Assembly: GCA_020052375.1 (NCBI GenBank)
Contig: JAGVPG010000004.1
Location: 1-64,000, forward strand
Direction: 5' to 3'
Origin: Actinomycetota bacterium
Lineage (GTDB): Bacteria; Actinomycetota; JAHEXW01; JAGVPG01
Length of the DNA: 64,000 nt
The notes below the pieces were generated by a model. It was not told the DNA's origin, ran no database searches, and worked only from the letters and a program-made list of their open reading frames with translations. Below are positions 2,992 through 20,055 of the stretch, one piece after another. The stretch's first letter is position 1; every line of letters begins with the position of its first letter. Position numbers and translations under genes: made by a program.

Positions 2992-3020
2992 AAAACTTCT
3001 TTCGTATCGCGGTATCGTTG

Positions 3021-3155
3021 TTATGGGTTAAAATTAGTTCCCCCGCAGGATGGACATGGTGGTAGCGTATCGTCAGTGTCGTCTAAACGTACTTTTTGTC
3101 CACAATTAGTGCATGTGTAGGTTCCAATCCCTGGTTTTTCTCCTGTAGTTGACAT
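3021..3155 (-). CDS. small zinc-ribbon protein (44 aa), not in the supplied ORF track
   Basis: Hand translation: MSTTGEKPGIGTYTCTNCGQKVRLDDTDDTLPPCPSCGGTNFNP*, two CxxC knuckles. Confidence 0.7.
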   Translation of the reverse strand: MSTTGEKPGIGTYTCTNCGQKVRLDDTDDTLPPCPSCGGTNFNP

Positions 3156-3384
3156 ACTAAGGACCCCCTTTCGAATTTCCGTGCATTCTAAACATAACGA
3201 ACGAATGTTCGCATGTCAAGTCCAAGCTTATATTCTATATATATATATATATTGCTTTAAGTGCTAATCGGAGAGATAATATCAGCACTTTGTTAGTTAA
3301 AAAGATGAGGATTTCTGCCTGATTATATGTTGATTTTGGAGGATGACAAAGCAAGAATGATTCATCGAAAACACAGTCGTACGT

Positions 3385-4119
3385 TTGGGCGTTGATGTGA
3401 ATAAAGAACCACGTGTAAAGAAAATATTGGTTTCTTTCGGTGAACGGAGGCTAAGGGGCGAAATCGGCAAGGTCTTCGTTGGTGGTGAATGCTGTCCGAA
3501 GGTAGGGCTTCGCGATGTATTTGACCGGGACATGTCGATTTGGACTAAAGAGGAAAGACGTTTTATTTGGAATGCCCATTTTGATTTTTTAGTTATAGAT
3601 AAGGATCACAAGCCGATTACCGCAATCGAGTTTGATGGATCGCAGCACTCCAATTCTCAACAAAGACATAGAGACACACTGAAAGATACAATCTGCAGGA
3701 AAGCAAGTCTACCCTTAATGAGGTTTTCAACTACTGACTTACACCCAACACCAGGGCTAGACGATCAGACATGGGCAAGTTTCATGATGTCCGTTAAAGC
3801 GGTGGCAGGCCAAAGCGCCGATCAGGTCTTTCAATTGATTCTTGAGTACTTAAAGTGGAGCGTAAGTGAAATTAACAAAGGGGAAGAAAACTCTTCGTTA
3901 ACGCGCGGTTTTGTGCCATTCTTTAGCGTTGAGGAATTCGCGCAAATCCTTATTAATTCAAAGCATTCTCAAGAGAACGCGCTGATTATTCTCCAACTCA
4001 AGGCAATTATTCATGATATAAAGGGAAAAATGATAGAAGTTAATCCTGATTTGACTGATGATGAGTTCGCTGAGTATATGACGTCAATACTTGAAAAGTC
4101 AGAGGGTCAGAGTCAATGA
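3385..4119 (+). CDS. DUF2726-like nuclease-fold protein
   Basis: 'FLVIDKDHKPITAIEFDGSQHSN...RDTLKDTICRKASLPLMRF' resembles the DUF2726 endonuclease-like core; start codon uncertain. Confidence 0.55.
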   Translation: MGVDVNKEPRVKKILVSFGERRLRGEIGKVFVGGECCPKVGLRDVFDRDMSIWTKEERRFIWNAHFDFLVIDKDHKPITAIEFDGSQHSNSQQRHRDTLKDTICRKASLPLMRFSTTDLHPTPGLDDQTWASFMMSVKAVAGQSADQVFQLILEYLKWSVSEINKGEENSSLTRGFVPFFSVEEFAQILINSKHSQENALIILQLKAIIHDIKGKMIEVNPDLTDDEFAEYMTSILEKSEGQSQ

Positions 4120-4262
4120 AGAAGGGGTCAGGTCTTGTATTTTGACATTTCGTGATTCCGTTTTTCTGGGTTCTTCGACGACCTGACGGTCGCCTCAGAG
4201 ATAACACTATTGAGCTGCAGAAGTTTTGAGGTTCCAAAATGGAACCTCAAACAGTTCGGGAG

Positions 4263-7534: not shown

Positions 7535-7669
7535 TTAGCCTCCATGCACTATTGGTAAATATGATTGATCCATATAAGTATAGCAATATCCGTGCGACCC
7601 TTCCCGCTAAGGAAACGGGTTGATTAATAATAAAGATAGTTTATAATAGATATAAGGAATGATTATTGC

Positions 7670-7761
7670 GGGGGCAAAGGCGCTGGGCGCTCCGCGGGCT
7701 GCAAACCCGTTGGCCTTGCCTGAACCGCAAGGAGGAGGTTCGATTCCCCTTGCCCCCTCCA
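7670..7761 (+). tRNA. SelC-like (tRNA-Sec architecture) tRNA with GCA (Cys) anticodon and U73, CCA encoded
   Basis: 8-bp acceptor GGGGGCAA/TTGCCCCC; anticodon stem GCGGG/CCCGT with loop CTGCAAA (anticodon GCA 7701-7703); long variable arm CCTTGC-CTGAACC-GCAAGG; T-loop TTCGATT with stem GG(A)GG/CCCC; T73 then CCA; ends 18 nt before selB. Confidence 0.85.
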
Positions 7762-7779: not shown

Positions 7780-9696
7780 TTGAGAAACCTCGTAGTAGGT
7801 ATAGCAGGACATATAGACCACGGAAAGACTTCGCTTGTAAAGTCGCTGACGGGTATCTCCACGGACCGCCTGAAGGAAGAAAAAGAGAGGCAGATGTCGA
7901 TCGACATCGGGTTCGCTTATCTTAGACTTCCTTCAGGCAGGGAGATCGACATGATCGACGTGCCCGGACACGAGAAATTCGTCAAAAACATGGTCTGCGG
8001 AGCTTCGGGCATCGATGTCGGTCTCCTGGTGGTAGCGGCGGATGACGGTGTGATGCCTCAAACCAGGGAACACCTCGATATCCTCCGGCTCATAGGGGTA
8101 AAACGCGGAGCGATCGTGATCACGAAGACAGATCTGGCTGACGACGATATGCTTTCGATCATTGACGAGGATATCGGGACTTTGGTGGAAGACACATTCC
8201 TTGAAGACTGTCCGGTCGTCAAGTTCTCGGCGCGAACGGAACAGGGCAAAGAAGAAGTCATCAGAATGCTCGACGGCATCTGCCATGATGCGGAAGCGAA
8301 AGATGAAAGGAAAGACTTCCGGATGCCCATCGATCATGTTTTCAGTGTTTCAGGTTTTGGTACGGTCGTTACAGGGACAGTCGGCTCGGGATCGATAAAG
8401 AACGGTGATGAGATCGTCGTCTATCCGGCTGGGATAAAGACCAGGGTAAGAAGCTTGCAAACGCACACGGACACAGTGCAGGAGTGCTCGGCGGGACAAA
8501 GGGTCGGGATAAACATCTCAAACGTGACTACCGAAGACCTGAAACGGGGGATGATCGTAGCCAGACCCGGAGCCCTTGAAAAGACGCATATAATCAATGT
8601 GCGCATAGACCACCTGTCATCATCGGGGCGCAAGCTGGTCGATTGCGAGAAGGTCATGCTCTACACGGGGACATCGGAAAGCGTCGCTCGTATCGTATTC
8701 ATCGAAAAAGACGGACTCGAACCTGGCGAAACAGGGCTTGCACAGTTCAGACTGGATCGTTCGATCGCGCCGGCCGTCTTCGACAGGTTCATCATCCGCC
8801 GTCTGTCACCGCAGGTGACGATCGGTGGAGGTCTTATCCTGGAGGTCACAAAGAAGAAATACCGGCGGGTTGACAAGGGGACAGCGGAGCATCTAAGGAC
8901 GATAGAAACAGGTTCGGCGGAAGAAAGGGTGGAAGAACTCTTCAGACGGTCGAGTTTCCTAAATCCTATGCCTAGCAACCGCATCGCAAGGATGGCATCT
9001 TTAGGCCGGACGGACGCGCATGTTATCATCGACGGTATATACAACGCGGGAAACCTGATGCGTCTACCGGCCGGCTTGATCCATATCGCCCAGTATCAAA
9101 GACTGAAAAGCGTTTTGATGGAACGCTTGAAAGCGCATGTTGAAAAGAAGCCCCTGGATACGGTCTTTCCGAGAGAAGAGATCAGGGCTATGATATCCAG
9201 TCGCCTGGACTGTGAGCTATTCAACAGGGCTCTCGAGGATCTGGCTAGGGATAAGACCATAGTCCTTACGGATAAAGGTATTCGGCTGAAGGGCCACAAA
9301 GCTGTTCTGAATAAGAAGCAGATGCAGATATTCAACGATATCGTGGATCTATCGAGTAACGGTGATATCAAGCCGATCTGGCGTTCGAACATAGAAGAAC
9401 TCTCGTCAAAATACGGAAAGGCCGACGTCGATTCGGTTGTGGACCATCTACTGGACGAGAAACGGATCATACTTCTGAAAGACGGAAGCATTCTGACATC
9501 CGAAGCTTACGACAAAGGCATGCGGACACTCTTATCCTCATTCAATGGCTGCGATGGATTCGATCTGGGCTCTTTCAAGGATGTCCTCAACGTCGGCCGC
9601 CGCGCGGCGGTCTGTCTACTCGAACACTTTGATTCGATAGGTCTGACCTCGAGACAAGGTGATAAAAGACTGGTCGTCAAGACGTCTGATCGCTAA
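7780..9696 (+). CDS. selB: selenocysteine-specific elongation factor SelB
   Basis: [38 protein letters not shown], long C-terminal region compatible with winged-helix repeats; TTG start after GGGAG. Confidence 0.93.
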
Positions 9697-9731: not shown

Positions 9732-11675
9732 ATGGATCTTCTGAAAGACCTTAATCCCCAGCAAAAGGAAGCCGTCATCCACGAGGAAGGACCCCTCCTT
9801 ATCCTCGCAGGTGCGGGCAGCGGAAAAACGAGGGCATTGACCTGCCGGATCGCGTATATGATAAAAGGCCGTCGCGTGAATCCGTTGAACATCCTTGCCA
9901 TAACGTTCACCAACAAAGCCGCCAGCGAGATGCGGAATCGTGTGGATGCTCTCCTCGGCAAGAACGTGAGCAAAGGGATGTGGGTGATGACCTTTCATTC
10001 GGCATGCGCCCGTATCTTAAGAAGCGACATCGGATCGCTGGGATATAAGAACACATTCACGATATATGACGACAGCGATTCCGAGAGGCTCATCAGGGAT
10101 TGCTTGATCGAGTTACAGCTCGACCCCAAGAAGTTCGCGCCGCGCGCGGTCTTGAGCGTGATCTCTCATGCCAAAAGCGAACTGATCGACCAGGACACCT
10201 ACGCTGCCGGGGCTTCATCTTATTTCGAACAGGTGACAGCCGAGGTATATAAACTCTACCAGCATCGCTTGTTCACCAGTAATTGCGTAGATTTCGACGA
10301 TCTTATCATGTTAGCGGTAAACATGCTGGAACTGTATCCCAAGATACTGGACAAATGGCAGGAAAAATTCAGATATATATTGATCGACGAGTATCAGGAT
10401 ACGAACCACGCCCAGTTCCGTCTGGTCAGTCTGCTGGCGAGCAAATACAAGAACATCTGCGTGGTAGGCGACCCGGACCAAAGCATATATAAGTTCAGAG
10501 GGGCGGATATAAGGAACATCCTCGAGTTCGAAAGGGACTTCCCTGACCCCAAGATAATAAACCTGGAACAGAACTACAGGTCGACACAGACGATCCTGGA
10601 TGCCGCCAACGCGCTTATAGAGAACAACCGGGGCCGGAAACCGAAGAACCTGTGGACGGACAAAGAAGCTGGAACGGGCATACTCTGGTATCAGGCCGAG
10701 AATGAACGCGACGAGGCGGTCTATGTCCTGACGGAGATCGAGAACCAGTGCCGTCGCAATAGTCGCAGCTTTAGAGACTTCGCGGTCTTCTACCGGACCA
10801 ACGCTCAATCACGTGTCTTTGAAGAAGTCTTCATGAACTGGGAGGTCCCGTATCGAGTTGTCGGCAGCTTGAGGTTCTATGACCGGATGGAGGTCAAGGA
10901 CATGCTGGCCTATTTGAGGGTGGTCAATAACGCGGACGATAACGTAAGCTTAAAGAGGATCGTCAACGTCCCGCGTCGGGGGATCGGAAAGACGACGATC
11001 GAACGGATCTCCGCTTACGCGAATACTATGGGCATGAGCTTGATGGATGCCCTGGAGGTCGTTCAAGACATTCCAGGCATCGGAGCGGCCGCGGTATCAA
11101 AGATCAAAGACTTTTGCGACATGATCAAGGGCTTCCAGGTGAAGAGCGCCGACGGCCTGCTTATTCTGGGGCAGGAGGTCGTTGAGAAGACCGGTTATAT
11201 CCGGGCACTGGAAAAAGAACAGACGACAGAGGCGGCAAACAGGATAGAGAACGTAAAAGAGCTGGTCGGAGCGATGAAAGAGTTCGAGACTGCTTATCAA
11301 GGGGCAAGTCTTGATGATTTCCTAGAAAAGGTCGCCCTGATCACTGACTTAGACTCATATGACCAAGATGATGACGCGGTCACGTTGATGACCGTACATA
11401 ACGCTAAAGGGCTTGAATTTCCGGGTGTGTTTATGGTCGGCATGGAAGAAGGGCTGTTTCCGCATTATAGATCGATGACGGACACGGCCGAACTCGAGGA
11501 AGAAAGGCGCCTGTGTTATGTCGGCATGACACGGGCAAAGGAACACCTATACCTTGTCTCAGCGTGGACTCGCACGATATTCGGCGGTATGAACTACGCT
11601 ACGCAGTCGAGATTCTTACGGGAAATACCTGAAGAGTTATTGGATGTAGATGGCAAGGATGAAGCGACATCTTGA
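9732..11675 (+). CDS. pcrA: ATP-dependent DNA helicase PcrA/UvrD
   Basis: MDLLKDLNPQQKEAVIHEEGPLLILAGAGSGKTRALTCRIAYM, 'LIDEYQDTNHAQF', 'VTLMTVHNAKGLEFPGVF'. Confidence 0.92.
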   Translation: MDLLKDLNPQQKEAVIHEEGPLLILAGAGSGKTRALTCRIAYMIKGRRVNPLNILAITFTNKAASEMRNRVDALLGKNVSKGMWVMTFHSACARILRSDIGSLGYKNTFTIYDDSDSERLIRDCLIELQLDPKKFAPRAVLSVISHAKSELIDQDTYAAGASSYFEQVTAEVYKLYQHRLFTSNCVDFDDLIMLAVNMLELYPKILDKWQEKFRYILIDEYQDTNHAQFRLVSLLASKYKNICVVGDPDQSIYKFRGADIRNILEFERDFPDPKIINLEQNYRSTQTILDAANALIENNRGRKPKNLWTDKEAGTGILWYQAENERDEAVYVLTEIENQCRRNSRSFRDFAVFYRTNAQSRVFEEVFMNWEVPYRVVGSLRFYDRMEVKDMLAYLRVVNNADDNVSLKRIVNVPRRGIGKTTIERISAYANTMGMSLMDALEVVQDIPGIGAAAVSKIKDFCDMIKGFQVKSADGLLILGQEVVEKTGYIRALEKEQTTEAANRIENVKELVGAMKEFETAYQGASLDDFLEKVALITDLDSYDQDDDAVTLMTVHNAKGLEFPGVFMVGMEEGLFPHYRSMTDTAELEEERRLCYVGMTRAKEHLYLVSAWTRTIFGGMNYATQSRFLREIPEELLDVDGKDEATS

Positions 11676-11738
11676 CACGTTTCACAACGGCTCATATAAT
11701 TAAATTATATTAATCACACCAAAATAGTAGGAATTAAC

Positions 11739-12467
11739 ATGTTCAAGAAGCTGAGAAGTGAATTCAATACAGTATTCGAGAAGGATCCGGCGGCGCGGAG
11801 CAGGATCGAAGTCCTGCTGGCCTACCCGGGTCTACATGCGATCCTTTTTCATCGTGTATCGCACTGGTTCTATCATCATAAGCTGGTCTTGATAGCCAGG
11901 TTGATATCGCATTTCGGAAGGTTCATGACCGGGATAGAGATCCATCCGGGAGCGATGATAGGCGAGAGGTTCTTTATAGACCACGGAATGGGCGTGGTCA
12001 TCGGCGAGACATCAGAGATCGGGGATGACGTCCTTCTCTACCAGGGTGTGACGCTCGGCGGCACGGGAATAGAGAAAGGCAAAAGGCACCCTACGATCAG
12101 AAACAACGTTGTAGTGGGCGCGGGCGCGAAGGTGCTGGGAGCTATTACGATAGGCGATAATGTCAGGATAGGAGCGGGTTCCGTAGTCGTAAGGGATGTA
12201 CCGGATAACACGACTGTAGTCGGCGTACCGGCCAGGGCCGTATTCGAGCAAGGGAAACGCGTGACACCGCTGGATGTTCTTGATCACGGCCAGCTCCCCG
12301 ATCCTGAAGTGGAGATCGTGAAGATACTTGTTGATAGGATACACCGCCTGGAAGAGAGAGTGAATAAGATAAAAGAAGTCAAAGAGGTCAAGGATGTCGA
12401 CGATATCAAGGAGATGAAAGAGTCGGAAGAGATGTTGAGGTGTTTTATGGATGGGGCAGGGATCTAA
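11739..12467 (+). CDS. cysE: serine O-acetyltransferase
   Basis: Hexapeptide-repeat fold, '[42 protein letters not shown]'; C-terminal repeat-derived extension. Confidence 0.92.
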
Positions 12468-12468
12468 A

Positions 12469-13625
<1,157 letters not shown>

Positions 13626-13629
<4 letters not shown>

Positions 13630-14420
13630 TGATCGATATTACTGAAAAAGTGGATTATAAGGAGTATTCGAGAGAAGGCGTCAAAGAGGCGACAGGTGAA
13701 GTCGTCGTCGAGATGCCTCTTACTATTTATGTAGATAAAGAAGAACTTGTAACACTGCTCTGCACGCCCGAACGCATGGACTACCTGGCTCTCGGTTTCT
13801 TATGGAGCGAAGGCGTCATCAATACACCTGACGAGGTCAAAAAGATCGTCGTCGACGAGGAAAAAGGAGCCGTCTGGGTGGATGCCGCGATAGACCGGGA
13901 GTTCATCAAGGAGATGATGTTCAAGCGCCTGATCACATCCGGATGCGGCAAAGGGACGACTTTCTATAGCGTCGTCGACAAAGTGTCCGCGCAGCCGGTG
14001 GTTTCGGATATTAAGGTAACTCCGGAACAAGTACTTGACCTGATGTCGAAGTTCCAGGAAACATCGCATCTATACAAGGAAACGCATGGCGTCCATAGCG
14101 CGGCTCTTTGTACACCGGATGAGATACTGACCTTCAGGGAAGACATCGGGCGGCACAACGCGATCGACAAGATACTCGGCGAATGCTTTATGTCGGGTAC
14201 TGCGCTTAAAGACAAAGTGATGTTGACGTCGGGCAGGATATCTTCAGAAGTGTTACTAAAAACGGCTAAGAAAGGCATACCGGTACTTGTATCCCGGACA
14301 TCGCCGACAGCACTGGCTGTAAGGTTAGCCGGAAAACTGGGTGTCACGCTGATCGGGTTCGTCCGGGGCGGCAAGATGAGAGTGTATAACCATAATGAAA
14401 GAGTAAACAGTGAGCAGTGA
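13626..14420 (+). CDS. fdhD: formate dehydrogenase accessory sulfurtransferase FdhD
   Basis: 'LALGFLWSEGVI', 'TSGCGKG', 'VHSAALC', 'EDIGRHNAIDKILG'. Confidence 0.92.
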
Positions 14421-14476
14421 ACAGTGAATAAGAGCAGGACACATCTGTTCACTGTTCATTGTTCACCGTTCACTAA
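14403..14476. repeat. (AGTGAACA)n-type repeat with inverted copy (related: 25248-25267, 62041-62070)
   Basis: ACAGTGAGCAGTGAACAGTGAAT ... TGTTCACTGTTCATTGTTCACCGTTCACT. Confidence 0.8.
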
Positions 14477-14491
14477 GTCATAGGAGTATAT

Positions 14492-15418
14492 GTGTCGTAT
14501 TGTGTAAGAGAGAACCTGCCATTACTGGAAAGAATAGGATGTCTCAAAGAAGAGCGTAAAGCGGTCATTCTGGCGCACAACTACCAGCTGCCGGAGGTCC
14601 AGGATATCGCCGATTTTGTAGGCGATTCGCTGGATCTGTCTATAAAAGCCGCCGAGACAGATGCGGAGATCATCGTCTTTTGCGGAGTCCATTTCATGGC
14701 GGAGACGGCGGCGATCCTTTCTCCGGACAAGAAGGTTTTGCTGGCAGCCGAACACGCCGGGTGTCCGATGGCTAATATGATAAGCGGACATCAGATGAAG
14801 GAGTTCAAAGCGGAGCATCCGGAAGCCACGGCCATGTGTTACGTCAATACGTCCGCTTCAGTAAAAGCTGAATGTGACTGGTGTTGCACGTCTGCGAATG
14901 CCCTGCAGATAGCGGAACATGTCGAAAATGACGAGATCCTGTTTGTACCGGACAAGTATCTGGGTTCGTATATAGCGTCAAAGTCGAATAAACACTTTAC
15001 CATCTGGAACGGTTATTGCCCGACGCACGTCAGGATCAGGCCTGAAGACATCGTCCAGCGCAAGAAGGAACATCCGAAAGCGGCGGTGATCGTGCATCCC
15101 GAATGTGTTTCGGAGGTCGTCGCGCTAGCGGACGAGGTCTTATCGACCGGCGGTATGGTAAAGTTCGCCCGCGAATCCGATTATAAAGAAATAATAATAG
15201 GGACGGAGGTCGGGCTGATCCACCGTCTTGAGCAAGAAAACCCGAAGAAACATTTCTATGCGGCCACGGAACTGGCTATATGTCCGAACATGAAACTTAC
15301 TAACCTGGAGAAGATCCTTTGGTCGCTGGAAGACCTTCAATATGAGATACACGTACCGGAGGACATCGCAAGGAGAGCAAAAAAAGCAATCGACAGGATG
15401 ATAAGTGTCAGGACATGA
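14492..15418 (+). CDS. nadA: quinolinate synthase
   Basis: 'ILAHNYQLPEVQDIADFVGDSLDLS', 'FCGVHFMAETAAIL', 'CPNMKLTNLEKIL'. Confidence 0.93.
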   Translation: MSYCVRENLPLLERIGCLKEERKAVILAHNYQLPEVQDIADFVGDSLDLSIKAAETDAEIIVFCGVHFMAETAAILSPDKKVLLAAEHAGCPMANMISGHQMKEFKAEHPEATAMCYVNTSASVKAECDWCCTSANALQIAEHVENDEILFVPDKYLGSYIASKSNKHFTIWNGYCPTHVRIRPEDIVQRKKEHPKAAVIVHPECVSEVVALADEVLSTGGMVKFARESDYKEIIIGTEVGLIHRLEQENPKKHFYAATELAICPNMKLTNLEKILWSLEDLQYEIHVPEDIARRAKKAIDRMISVRT

Positions 15419-16449
15419 AAGTCTTTGTCGCTATGAGCGGCGGGGTAGACAGCTCGACAACGGCCGCTCTTCTTAAAGAACAAGGACATGAAGTAACCGG
15501 TGTCACTATGTTATTGCATGATGCCGCTTCAGACGAGACCGCAAAAACCGTCGCGCGATACTTGAATATCCTGCATAAGACCATCGATCTTAAAGATCTG
15601 TTCAAGAAGGAGATAATCACCTATTTTGTCGATGAGTACAACAACGGGCGGACTCCCAATCCATGTGTCTTATGCAATAAGAAGATAAAGTTCGGCATGC
15701 TGCTTGATTATGCGCTCGAGAACGGAGCAGACTTCCTTGCAACAGGTCACTACGCCCGCATCGAGCTCACCCGACTCACGACTCACGACTCACGGTTCAC
15801 TCTAAAGAAAGGGATCGACGGTTCGAAAGACCAATCGTATTTCTTGTGGATGCTGGACCAACAGCAGCTGGTTCATATTCTTTTTCCCCTTGGCGCCTAT
15901 ACAAAACATCAGGTAAGGGAGATGGCAAGGGAGCGGGGATTGCCGGTGGCCGATAGGCCGGAGAGCCAGGAGATATGCTTTGTTCCCGATGACGATTACC
16001 GGGCACTACTAAGGAAAAGCGGTAAACGATTCATTGAACCCGGATCGATCATCAGTCCGGACGGAACCGAGATCGGCAGGCACAAAGGCATAATCGATTA
16101 TACCGTCGGCCAGCGTAAAGGGCTCGGCATCGCGGCCGGCCATCCGCTGTATGTGACGGCTATAGACATACAGCAAAATGCGGTTATCACCGGAACCGAT
16201 GAAGACCTGTATAGGAGCGAGATCGAATGTGATCGATCAAATATCATCTCAGGTGATCAGCTTGCACCGGAGTCGGAGGTGACCGCTCGTATCAGATACA
16301 ACAGTCCGGGATCGACAGCCATAATAAGACCTCTAAAGAACGGAACCATCCTTGCCGGCTTCAAGATACCGCAGAGGGCGGTAGCCCCGGGACAGAGCAT
16401 CGTGTTTTACGACGACGATATTGTGATCGGAGGAGCTGTTATATCTTAA
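15415..16449 (+). CDS. mnmA: tRNA-specific 2-thiouridylase MnmA (contains an in-frame repeat insertion)
   Basis: MKVFVAMSGGVDSSTTAALL, 'TPNPCVLCNKKIKFG', 'GSKDQSYFLW', 'SQEICFVPD', 'YTVGQRKGLGI'. Confidence 0.93.
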   Translation: MKVFVAMSGGVDSSTTAALLKEQGHEVTGVTMLLHDAASDETAKTVARYLNILHKTIDLKDLFKKEIITYFVDEYNNGRTPNPCVLCNKKIKFGMLLDYALENGADFLATGHYARIELTRLTTHDSRFTLKKGIDGSKDQSYFLWMLDQQQLVHILFPLGAYTKHQVREMARERGLPVADRPESQEICFVPDDDYRALLRKSGKRFIEPGSIISPDGTEIGRHKGIIDYTVGQRKGLGIAAGHPLYVTAIDIQQNAVITGTDEDLYRSEIECDRSNIISGDQLAPESEVTARIRYNSPGSTAIIRPLKNGTILAGFKIPQRAVAPGQSIVFYDDDIVIGGAVIS

Positions 16450-16516
16450 AACGCTTGACAACCGAAGACCTGTCTTGTAGTGTATATTACATAATATCGA
16501 TAGGAATTGGAGGTAT

Positions 16517-17425
16517 ATGATGTTTAAGGATGCAACGGCGCTGATAGGGGACACGGCTTTGATAAAACTGAATAAAGTCTTATCACCCGGGTCAGCCACA
16601 GTCTACGCAAAGATAGAATCCCGTAATCCGGGCGGGAGCGTAAAAGACCGGATAGGTCTGTCGATGATCGAGGCTGGAGAGAGAGATGGGACCCTCAAAC
16701 CTGGTTCGACGATAGTCGAACCGACGAGTGGGAATACAGGGATCGCTCTGGCTCTGGTCGCAGCGGTCAAGGGATACCAGTGCATCCTTACGATGCCCGA
16801 GTCCATGAGCGTTGAAAGACGCGCGTTATTGAGTTCTTTCGGAGCGGCACTAGTCCTGACACCCGCGACCGAAGGTATGACCGGAGCCGTGAAGAGGGCG
16901 GAGAAACTGGTCGCGGGAAACTCCGACTTTTTCATGCCGCAGCAGTTCAACAACCCGGCAAATCCCGATATCCATAGGACCAAGACGGCTGTCGAGATAC
17001 TGGACGGTGTGGGGAACATAAAGATCGACGCTTTTGTAGCCGGAGTCGGAACGGGAGGGACGATCACCGGAGTCGGTGAAGTCCTGAAGGGCTTAAACCC
17101 GGCTGTCAAGATAGTTGCGGTAGAGCCGGCTGAATCTCCCGTCCTTTCGGGAGGCGCACCGGGTCCGCACAAGATACAGGGGATCGGAGCGGGTTTTGTC
17201 CCTAAGGTCTTGAACACGGCGATCCTGGACGAGATATTGACTGTAGGGCAGGAAGACGCCTTCGCGATGCGGGAACGCTTGATAAACGAGGAAGGACTGC
17301 TGGTCGGCATATCCTCAGGAGCCGCGGTGGTAGCGGCCGGTAAAGTGGCTGAAAGGCTTGGTGAAGGCAAGACGGTAGTGACAATACTTCCGGACACCGG
17401 CGAACGCTATTTGAGCATGGTCTAG
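16517..17425 (+). CDS. cysK: cysteine synthase (O-acetylserine sulfhydrylase), copy 1
   Basis: '[22 protein letters not shown]', '[12 protein letters not shown]', '[13 protein letters not shown]', 'GISSGAA'. Confidence 0.92.
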
Positions 17426-18433: not shown

Positions 18434-19636
18434 ATGGCTACCAAGACATATGAAGAGATAAATCAAAAGATCAAAAAGGGCGAGGCCGTCGTGGTCACAG
18501 CCGAAGAGATCATCGATATCGTCAAGGAAAAGGGTGTCAAACAGACCCTCAAAGATGTCGATGTCGTGACCACCGGTACATTCGGGCCGATGTGCTCGTC
18601 CGGAGCGATTCTAAACATCGGACACTCGAATCCGAAGATAAAGATCCAAAAAGCATGGCTTAACGATGTGAATGCGTACGCAGGACTTGCCGCGGTCGAT
18701 CTGTATATCGGAGTCACCGAGGTCCCGGACGACGATCCGTTGAACAAGGTGCATCCGGGCGCGTTCCGCTATGGCGGAGGGCATGTCATCGAGGACCTGG
18801 TCGCCGGGAAGGACGTTAAACTGCGGGCGATCTCGTACGGGACGGACTGCTATCCGCGGCGCAAGCTGGAGACGTTGATCAACTTGAAGGATCTGAACGA
18901 GGCGTTCCTGTTCAATCCGAGGAACGCGTACCAGAACTATAATTGTGCGGTGAACCTGTCCAACCGGGTGATCTATACGTACATGGGTGTCATCAAGCCG
19001 CATCTCGGCAACGCCAACTACTCGACATCGGGACAACTTTCCCCGCTGCTGAACGATCCTCTGTATAAGACGATCGGCATCGGGACAAGGATCTTCCTGG
19101 GTGGAGGAGTCGGATATGTCGTCTGGAACGGTACCCAGCACAATCCGACTGCGAAAAGAGGAGAAAACGGTGTCCCGAAAGGCGGAGCAGGCACTCTGTC
19201 CGTAGTCGGGGATCTCAAGCAGATGAAGCCGGAATGGCTGGTAGGGGCATCCTTTGTAGGCTACGGTGCGACTCTGACAGTAGGGCTTGGCATACCGATA
19301 CCGCTTCTTTCCGAAGAGATACTGGAATATGTCAGCGTTACCGATAAAGAGATATTCACACAGGTCATCGACTACAGTGAGGATTATCCGAACGGTATCG
19401 TCCGGTCATTGGGAGAGATCAGTTACGCGCAGTTGAGAAGCGGCGAGATCGAAGTCAACGGCAAGAAAGTCCCGACGGCCAGCCTGTCCAGCTATTCGAA
19501 GGCTCGAGAGATCGCCCTGGAACTGAAAAGCTGGATAAAGGAAGGTAAGTTCGAGCTTGGCGAACCCGTAGAACTGATCCCGGGACCCGAGAGCGGACTG
19601 TCGTTCAAACCGTTGAAAGAAAGGGCGGTAGAATAA
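18434..19636 (+). CDS. DUF39 homocysteine biosynthesis protein (aspartate-semialdehyde sulfurtransferase-type)
   Basis: 'TYEEINQKIKKGEAVVVTAEEI', 'TTGTFGPMCSSGAILNIGHS', 'CYPRRKLETLINLKDLNEAFLFNPRNAYQNYNCA'. Confidence 0.88.
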   Translation: MATKTYEEINQKIKKGEAVVVTAEEIIDIVKEKGVKQTLKDVDVVTTGTFGPMCSSGAILNIGHSNPKIKIQKAWLNDVNAYAGLAAVDLYIGVTEVPDDDPLNKVHPGAFRYGGGHVIEDLVAGKDVKLRAISYGTDCYPRRKLETLINLKDLNEAFLFNPRNAYQNYNCAVNLSNRVIYTYMGVIKPHLGNANYSTSGQLSPLLNDPLYKTIGIGTRIFLGGGVGYVVWNGTQHNPTAKRGENGVPKGGAGTLSVVGDLKQMKPEWLVGASFVGYGATLTVGLGIPIPLLSEEILEYVSVTDKEIFTQVIDYSEDYPNGIVRSLGEISYAQLRSGEIEVNGKKVPTASLSSYSKAREIALELKSWIKEGKFELGEPVELIPGPESGLSFKPLKERAVE

Positions 19637-20055
19637 TGGCAAAAACGGGAGTCACCAAACGGATAGTGATTCGTTTTCCGAAGCGCTTGGTGGAAGAACC
19701 GATCGTATACCGGCTGATCAAGGACTTCGACCTGGTCATGAACATACTTAAAGCATATGTCACACCGAACGAAGAAGGATTGCTGGTCATGGAGCTTCAG
19801 GGCGATGCGGATAAGTTCGAAGAGGGCATCCGGTATCTGAAAGACAAGGGTGTCTTAGTCGAACCGCTAAGCAAGGATGTCAAGAGAAACGAGGACCGTT
19901 GCACACATTGCGGCGCGTGCGTCGTTTTATGCCCGGCTTCGGCTCTGGTCGTGGATAAGGATACAAGCAAGATCATCTTCTCCGACGAGAAGTGCATTGC
20001 TTGCGAGTTATGCGTTCCGGCATGTCCGGTAGGCGCGATGGAGGTGCATTTCTAA
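19636..20055 (+). CDS. NIL domain / 4Fe-4S ferredoxin protein (partner of DUF39)
   Basis: NIL-like N-terminus then two CxxCxxCxxxCP clusters (CTHCGACVVLCP, CIACELCVPACP). Confidence 0.9.
   Translation: MAKTGVTKRIVIRFPKRLVEEPIVYRLIKDFDLVMNILKAYVTPNEEGLLVMELQGDADKFEEGIRYLKDKGVLVEPLSKDVKRNEDRCTHCGACVVLCPASALVVDKDTSKIIFSDEKCIACELCVPACPVGAMEVHF

Follow-up and report, generated by a model that had tools for sequence, protein, structure and literature searches.

Some bacteria encode a cysteine tRNA built on the body of tRNA-Sec, a class reportedly named tRNAReC by Vargas-Rodriguez in 2018. The review of Mukai 2017 (PMC7609411), in the part that treats these genes, describes selC* tRNA-Cys as tRNA-Sec-like, with U73, a GCA or UCA anticodon, and an 8/4 branch with an unpaired A51a. 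It places selB* downstream of selC* in Syntrophobacterales and Desulfobacterales, with cysS* in Desulfobacterales, and gives the hosts as Firmicutes, Thermodesulfobacteria, Nitrospirae, and Proteobacteria. The tRNA of this type from Desulfotomaculum nigrificans is delivered by SelB and decodes selenocysteine UGA with cysteine, according to a passage of PMC11415595 (citing Vargas-Rodriguez 2018), and selenoprotein synthesis under scarce selenium has been proposed as the role of such tRNAs (PMC9437257, in its lines on this class). Here, we describe a tRNA of this kind together with its selB* in a deep-branching member of the Actinomycetota, a phylum outside the host list in that part of the review (PMC7609411). 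What is new is mainly the presence of the class in deep Actinomycetota and the finding that the bulged 8/4 shape accompanies an extra delivery factor.

The window (the whole 64,000-nucleotide stretch analysed) is from contig C16 of a 1.64-Mb genome that is 95% complete. Its locus shares with the described selC*/tRNAReC and selB* systems (Mukai 2017; Vargas-Rodriguez 2018) the tRNA-Sec body, GCA, U73, the 8/4 branch with a bulged A51a, a selB* directly downstream, and a canonical selC elsewhere in the genome; the tRNA thus agrees with every sequence feature of the class and is of an already known kind. The order selC* then selB* is also that of the Desulfobacterales selC*(UCA)-selB*-cysS* loci, from which the window differs in its GCA anticodon, its G:C pair at 1:72, and a host without a second CysRS. 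With canonical tRNA-Sec the window tRNA shares an acceptor stem of 8 bp, a long variable arm, and a SelB partner; it differs from the host's canonical selC, whose anticodon is UCA, discriminator G73, and T-stem 5 bp long, and the window SelB* stands outside the canonical SelB group. Allo-tRNAs (8/4 and 9/3; Clostridia, Proteobacteria, Acidobacteria) resemble it in the 12-bp acceptor branch of 8/4 type but are of Ser or Ala identity (PMC7609411, in its account of them), unlike the U73, G1:C72, and GCA found here. The archaeal SelB/EF-Tu/aIF2-gamma-like protein MM1309 is likewise a SelB-like factor and was shown to bind Cys-tRNA-Cys (PMC4329189), but it is archaeal and binds ordinary tRNA-Cys, and the analogy is one of function only.

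Table 1. Features of the selC*-selB* locus in window coordinates
Feature	Position	Strand	Basis
selC*/tRNAReC-type tRNA, encoded CCA included	7670..7761	+	Sequence, ARAGORN, Rfam, pairing check against relatives
Anticodon GCA, in loop CTGCAAA	7701..7703	+	ARAGORN; common to 56/72 relatives
Long variable arm, 6 bp and 7-nt loop (CCTTGC-CTGAACC-GCAAGG)	7714..7732	+	Sequence, RF01852 alignment
T-arm, 4 bp, bulged A at 7736 (class position 51a)	7734..7749	+	8/4 with bulge in 45/72 relatives
Discriminator U73, Cys identity element	7758..7758	+	Sequence, compared with relatives
Putative promoter of sigma-70 type (TTGATT-16 nt-TATAAT), lying 22 nt before the tRNA	7620..7647	+	Consensus match only
selB*, paralogous SelB, 638 aa, TTG start; G243, N273, H186	7780..9696	+	TIGR00475, trees, diagnostic residues

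The tRNA body (7670 to 7758) is followed by an encoded CCA (7759 to 7761). All eight pairs of the acceptor stem (GGGGGCAA/TTGCCCCC, 7670-7677/7750-7757) are formed, pair 1:72 is G:C, and the T-stem (GG-A-GG/CCCC, 7734-7738/7746-7749) has four of four pairs with A7736 unpaired, giving the 8/4 branch. Compared with the UCA, G73, and 13-bp 8/5 branch of canonical selC, the tRNA has GCA, U73, and a bulged 8/4 branch. It is read as tRNA-Cys(GCA) by ARAGORN over 7670-7761 and as tRNA-Sec by Rfam (RF01852, 50.7 bits; gathering, 47; E, 1.6e-8). A sequence-only reading had listed the tRNA-Sec-like features (8-bp acceptor stem, variable arm, GCA, U73, bulged 4-bp T-stem), had placed the tRNA directly upstream of selB, and had filed it as a probable member of a rare Cys/Sec class with a bulged 8/4 branch. 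The features are all in the sequence, selB does start at 7780 (372.7 bits against TIGR00475), the filing agrees with the relevant parts of PMC7609411 and PMC11415595, and the tRNA-Sec covariance model that the reading proposed to run returns the RF01852 match. Single-strand minimum-energy folding of the window tRNA does not favour the cloverleaf, so the support for the tRNA structure comes from covariance models and from its relatives. Matches to sigma-70-like promoters in the tRNA region occur at chance level. The conserved relatives, some of them in the same phylum, show the make-up to be more than chance and rule out an error of assembly or base calling at positions 7701 and 7758.

The host also carries a complete canonical selD-selA-selB-selC(UCA) operon on contig C3. 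Its selC (C3:77110-77204; UCA, G73, 5-bp T-stem) scores 65.5 bits and has another selB alongside, selA scores 616 bits, and selD contains an in-frame TGA. A normal tRNA-Cys(GCA) is encoded on contig C11. The canonical selC, tRNA-Cys, selA, and selD that the sequence-only reading suggested looking for are therefore all present, which rules out the window tRNA as the sole, altered selC. With canonical selC(UCA) and tRNA-Cys at hand, both Cys codons and selenocysteine UGA codons are served without the window tRNA, and two selB genes in one genome shift the question from an altered selC to a second tRNA-factor pair. The genome has one full-length, ordinary CysRS; no second CysRS lacking the anticodon-binding domain (CysRS*, cysS*) was found in it, other CysRS matches lying far below the cut-off. 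The five UGA-coded selenoprotein candidates found, namely SelD, three molybdopterin oxidoreductases with one in-frame TGA each, and a peroxiredoxin-like open reading frame, use TGA. Relatives of the molybdopterin oxidoreductases have Cys at the TGA site, so Cys can stand there. The peroxiredoxin-like frame (FTPVU; L258:340-342, plus strand) lies near a UGA-coded molybdopterin oxidoreductase (about L258:1735, plus strand), and both are likely selenoproteins; the TGA of the peroxiredoxin-like frame was judged from the sequence. The assignment of the host's phylum to Actinomycetota is inferred from WhiB, which was found in 32 of 60 sampled members and, among 14 control genomes, in Corynebacterium only; the host itself is without it.

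The selB* at 7780-9696 (372.7 bits against TIGR00475) is the second selB of the genome and lies directly 3' of the tRNA, with 18 nt between them. In a tree of 29 SelB* and 32 canonical SelB proteins, the two groups fell on opposite sides of a single branch (support, 100/99), with the window protein inside the SelB* side, and the same split was recovered when five more SelB* from the host's phylum were added. Midpoint rooting was used for drawing only, and the trees show one side of a branch rather than a clade. The best identity of the window SelB* (51% over 440 columns) was to SelB* of G703, from the same phylum. All SelB* have G243 and N273, where each canonical SelB compared has A and D. 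At position 186, all canonical rows have R and SelB* has R, Q, H, G, or K (H in the window). This position aligns with E. coli R181, which we take to line the selenocysteine pocket. An archaeal SelB, like the window SelB*, has H at position 186 and Gly at position 243, so these residues do not prove Cys specificity, and a lost selenocysteine pocket was rejected as such proof given R at position 186 in several SelB* and H in the archaeal SelB; as read from the alignments, G243, N273, and position 186 are subfamily markers. The fourth winged helix, which binds SECIS, also differs: at position 608, 24 of 25 canonical rows have K, whereas SelB* is variable (R in the window), a difference that could reflect another RNA signal. 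A scan of named genomes with SelB* gave best matches of 35 to 39% identity, none of them beside a selC*. In G071 (L298, G071:C9:1-12000, at about 2997-4149), an intact 8/4 selC* adjoins a selB* that looks broken, its N-terminal part absent and its homology split over two frames, although the genome has canonical selB and selC at another site; this lineage may be losing SelB*.

A covariance model (R1) was built from three such tRNAs, which it scores at 99 to 110 bits, compared with 43 to 53 bits for canonical selC of related genomes. Starting from named loci, 50 genomes were reached, of which 7 gave R1 matches of at least 88 bits; tRNAs of this type were found in 29 of 396 sampled genomes of the Actinomycetota and 42 of 395 of the Desulfobacterota. 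Matches in G373, G425, and G586, among the weakest in Desulfobacterota, were the canonical selC itself and were dropped. Among 72 tRNAs of the same make-up, 56 have GCA and 70 have U73. A separate canonical selC is present in 65 of 73 genomes with a selC*-type tRNA, compared with a strong match in about 25 of 41 genomes from a phylum sample, so the trait goes with selenocysteine use. Canonical selC was undetected in G743, G209, G213, G323, G433, G393, G093, and G322, all with a selC*-type tRNA; these metagenome-assembled genomes (MAGs) are incomplete, and the eight cases reflect either MAG gaps or a tRNA working without selenocysteine. Three of the eight, G743, G209, and G433, carry SelB* together with the tRNA, and G433 has two selC*-type copies with the anticodon loop CCGCAAA. 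Two SelB*-linked tRNAs of Desulfobacterota (L239:9091-9182 and L240:8862-8953) have a UCA anticodon with A73 in place of U73, possibly a changed amino acid identity.

The shape of the T-arm is coupled to SelB*. The 8/4 form with a bulge was found in 45 of the 72 tRNAs, 38 of them with selB* in the locus, and the 8/5 form in 27, none with selB* (Fisher P, 1e-13, a statistic that ignores relatedness). Within the host's phylum, selB* accompanies 7 of 8 tRNAs with 8/4 and 0 of 21 with 8/5; within Desulfobacterota, the figures are 31 of 37 and 0 of 6. Among the 8/4 tRNAs without a linked selB*, at least one (L231) lies close to the end of its contig. Mukai and colleagues had already proposed SelB* as the reader of the 8/4 form (PMC7609411, in its remarks on SelB*), and the counts turn that proposal into a strong association.

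Downstream of the window pair lie pcrA, cysE, nifS, fdhD, nadA, an MnmA-like gene, and cysK (9732-17425), a run of cysteine and sulfur-transfer genes unlike the selenium-gene setting of selB* in Desulfobacterota, where the loci include selD, yedE, and yedF as well as double-cubane reductase, activase, and HdrA genes. Separate inspection of selD showed a UGA-coded copy beside selB* in L213, L227, L235, L236, and L298. Many Clostridia, too, have a UGA-coded selD but no tRNA of this type in the vicinity, so its place beside selB* is no proof of function. An all-frames comparison of in-frame UGA genes near selB* was swamped by antisense shadow frames. A stricter filter, which misses short N-terminal UGAs, left nothing in the host but genes of formate-dehydrogenase type and, in other genomes, ABC genes next to a stop; apart from selenoprotein types, the selB* flanks yielded no genes that have both an in-frame UGA and homologues.

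The pair is probably a selC*/tRNAReC-type cysteine tRNA with a dedicated SelB*, in which CysRS charges the tRNA, SelB* delivers it, and cysteine enters at SECIS-marked UGA codons. The host's one ordinary CysRS would charge the window tRNA with cysteine, because U73 and GCA are CysRS identity elements, and the 8-bp acceptor stem would keep it off EF-Tu. SelB* would then deliver the charged tRNA wherever a ribosome meets a UGA with a SECIS hairpin after it, and there cysteine would go in, through a tolerated GCA:UGA mispairing, in the place that canonical SelB/tRNA-Sec would give to selenocysteine. Cysteine is the likely amino acid, judging from U73 with GCA or UCA; the anticodon is one of these two within the SelB* family and U73 is nearly universal, so the amino acid appears constant. 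UGA is the codon that both the GCA and UCA forms are documented to read. Cys identity, SelB delivery, and the reading of UGA as Cys have been reported by others for a relative, and by analogy we infer that the window pair does the same in its host, that SelB* prefers the window tRNA, and that ordinary selenoprotein UGAs are the targets. The benefit would be a selenium-independent back-up for selenoproteins, SelD foremost, because this enzyme, the maker of the selenium donor, has a UGA in its own gene in the host; a Cys form of SelD when selenium is missing, by which the selenium pathway might bootstrap itself, suggests a concrete benefit.

The sequence-only reading had offered three functional options, of which the SelB-delivered Cys-tRNA is now the best supported and selenocysteine insertion at Cys codons fares worst. 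In that last case, the tRNA would be serylated, converted by SelA, and read UGC/UGU, as reported for tRNA-Sec variants of Aeromonas salmonicida; a GCA anticodon on a tRNA-Sec body in a host with SelA and SelD fits, but we consider it very improbable given U73 against G73 in the host's canonical selC, the same U73 throughout nearly all relatives, the bulged 8/4 branch, the canonical selC(UCA) and selD in the same genome, selenoprotein candidates that use TGA, and a related tRNA reported to insert Cys (PMC11415595, in the passage on it). That the locus encodes a non-translational RNA (a Cys sensor, a decoy for CysRS or SelB, or a leader regulator of selB*) or a decaying gene is quite unlikely. 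The tRNA does sit in the 5' region of selB*, which would allow an action in cis, the relative G071 has a broken frame in the selB* next to its tRNA, and 8/5 forms exist without any SelB*. Against this, the acceptor stem and CCA are intact, the anticodon loop and discriminator are conserved across 72 sequences from two phyla, which suggests selection for charging and decoding, and an intact selB* frame follows the window tRNA.

Unlikely, in our estimate, is a second recoding channel in which SelB* would recognise a separate mRNA hairpin and put Cys, at UGA or at UGC/UGU, into dedicated genes rather than ordinary selenoproteins. In its favour, SelB* forms a subfamily of its own, marked by fixed differences and an altered contact region in the fourth winged helix, the tRNA T-arm varies in step with it, and a few genomes have the pair with canonical selC undetected; yet the selB* flanks hold no in-frame UGA genes with homologues beyond selenoprotein types, canonical selC is kept in most carriers, and several neighbouring genes are selenium genes. 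The broader proposal of an orthogonal channel in Actinomycetota and Desulfobacterota, made up of SelB* and the bulged 8/4 tRNA, with a tRNA shape, an amino acid (Cys), and an mRNA hairpin of its own and a dedicated set of genes to act on, is unlikely to a like degree. Delivery of Cys to ordinary selenoprotein UGAs, the reading preferred here, has points against it as well: were those UGAs the only targets, canonical SelB could serve the tRNA by itself, which it has to do in genomes with the 8/5 form; the presence of a second SelB calls for an explanation, and its fourth winged helix differs from the canonical one; and in eight carriers of the tRNA no canonical selC was detected, though their MAGs are incomplete.

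If two pairs of tRNA and factor compete for one stop codon within a single cell, as they may here, they would be a natural experiment in the flexibility of the genetic code and in how bacteria keep selenoproteins once selenium runs out. The coupling of T-arm to SelB, with G243 and N273 fixed, makes the question of why there are two SelBs testable by mutation, and the pair is a candidate orthogonal SelB/tRNA pair for genetic code engineers.

Farther along the window, at 18434-20055, a weak match to TIGR03287 (methanogenesis marker 16, below cut-off) is followed by a small ferredoxin-like open reading frame, and the two look like a COG1900 homocysteine-biosynthesis pair. Elsewhere in the host's phylum, two tRNA-Sec(UCA) genes lie 9 kb apart on one contig (L041:1098-1189 and 10294-10386; G025:C96) and are near-identical save for the variable arm and acceptor ends.
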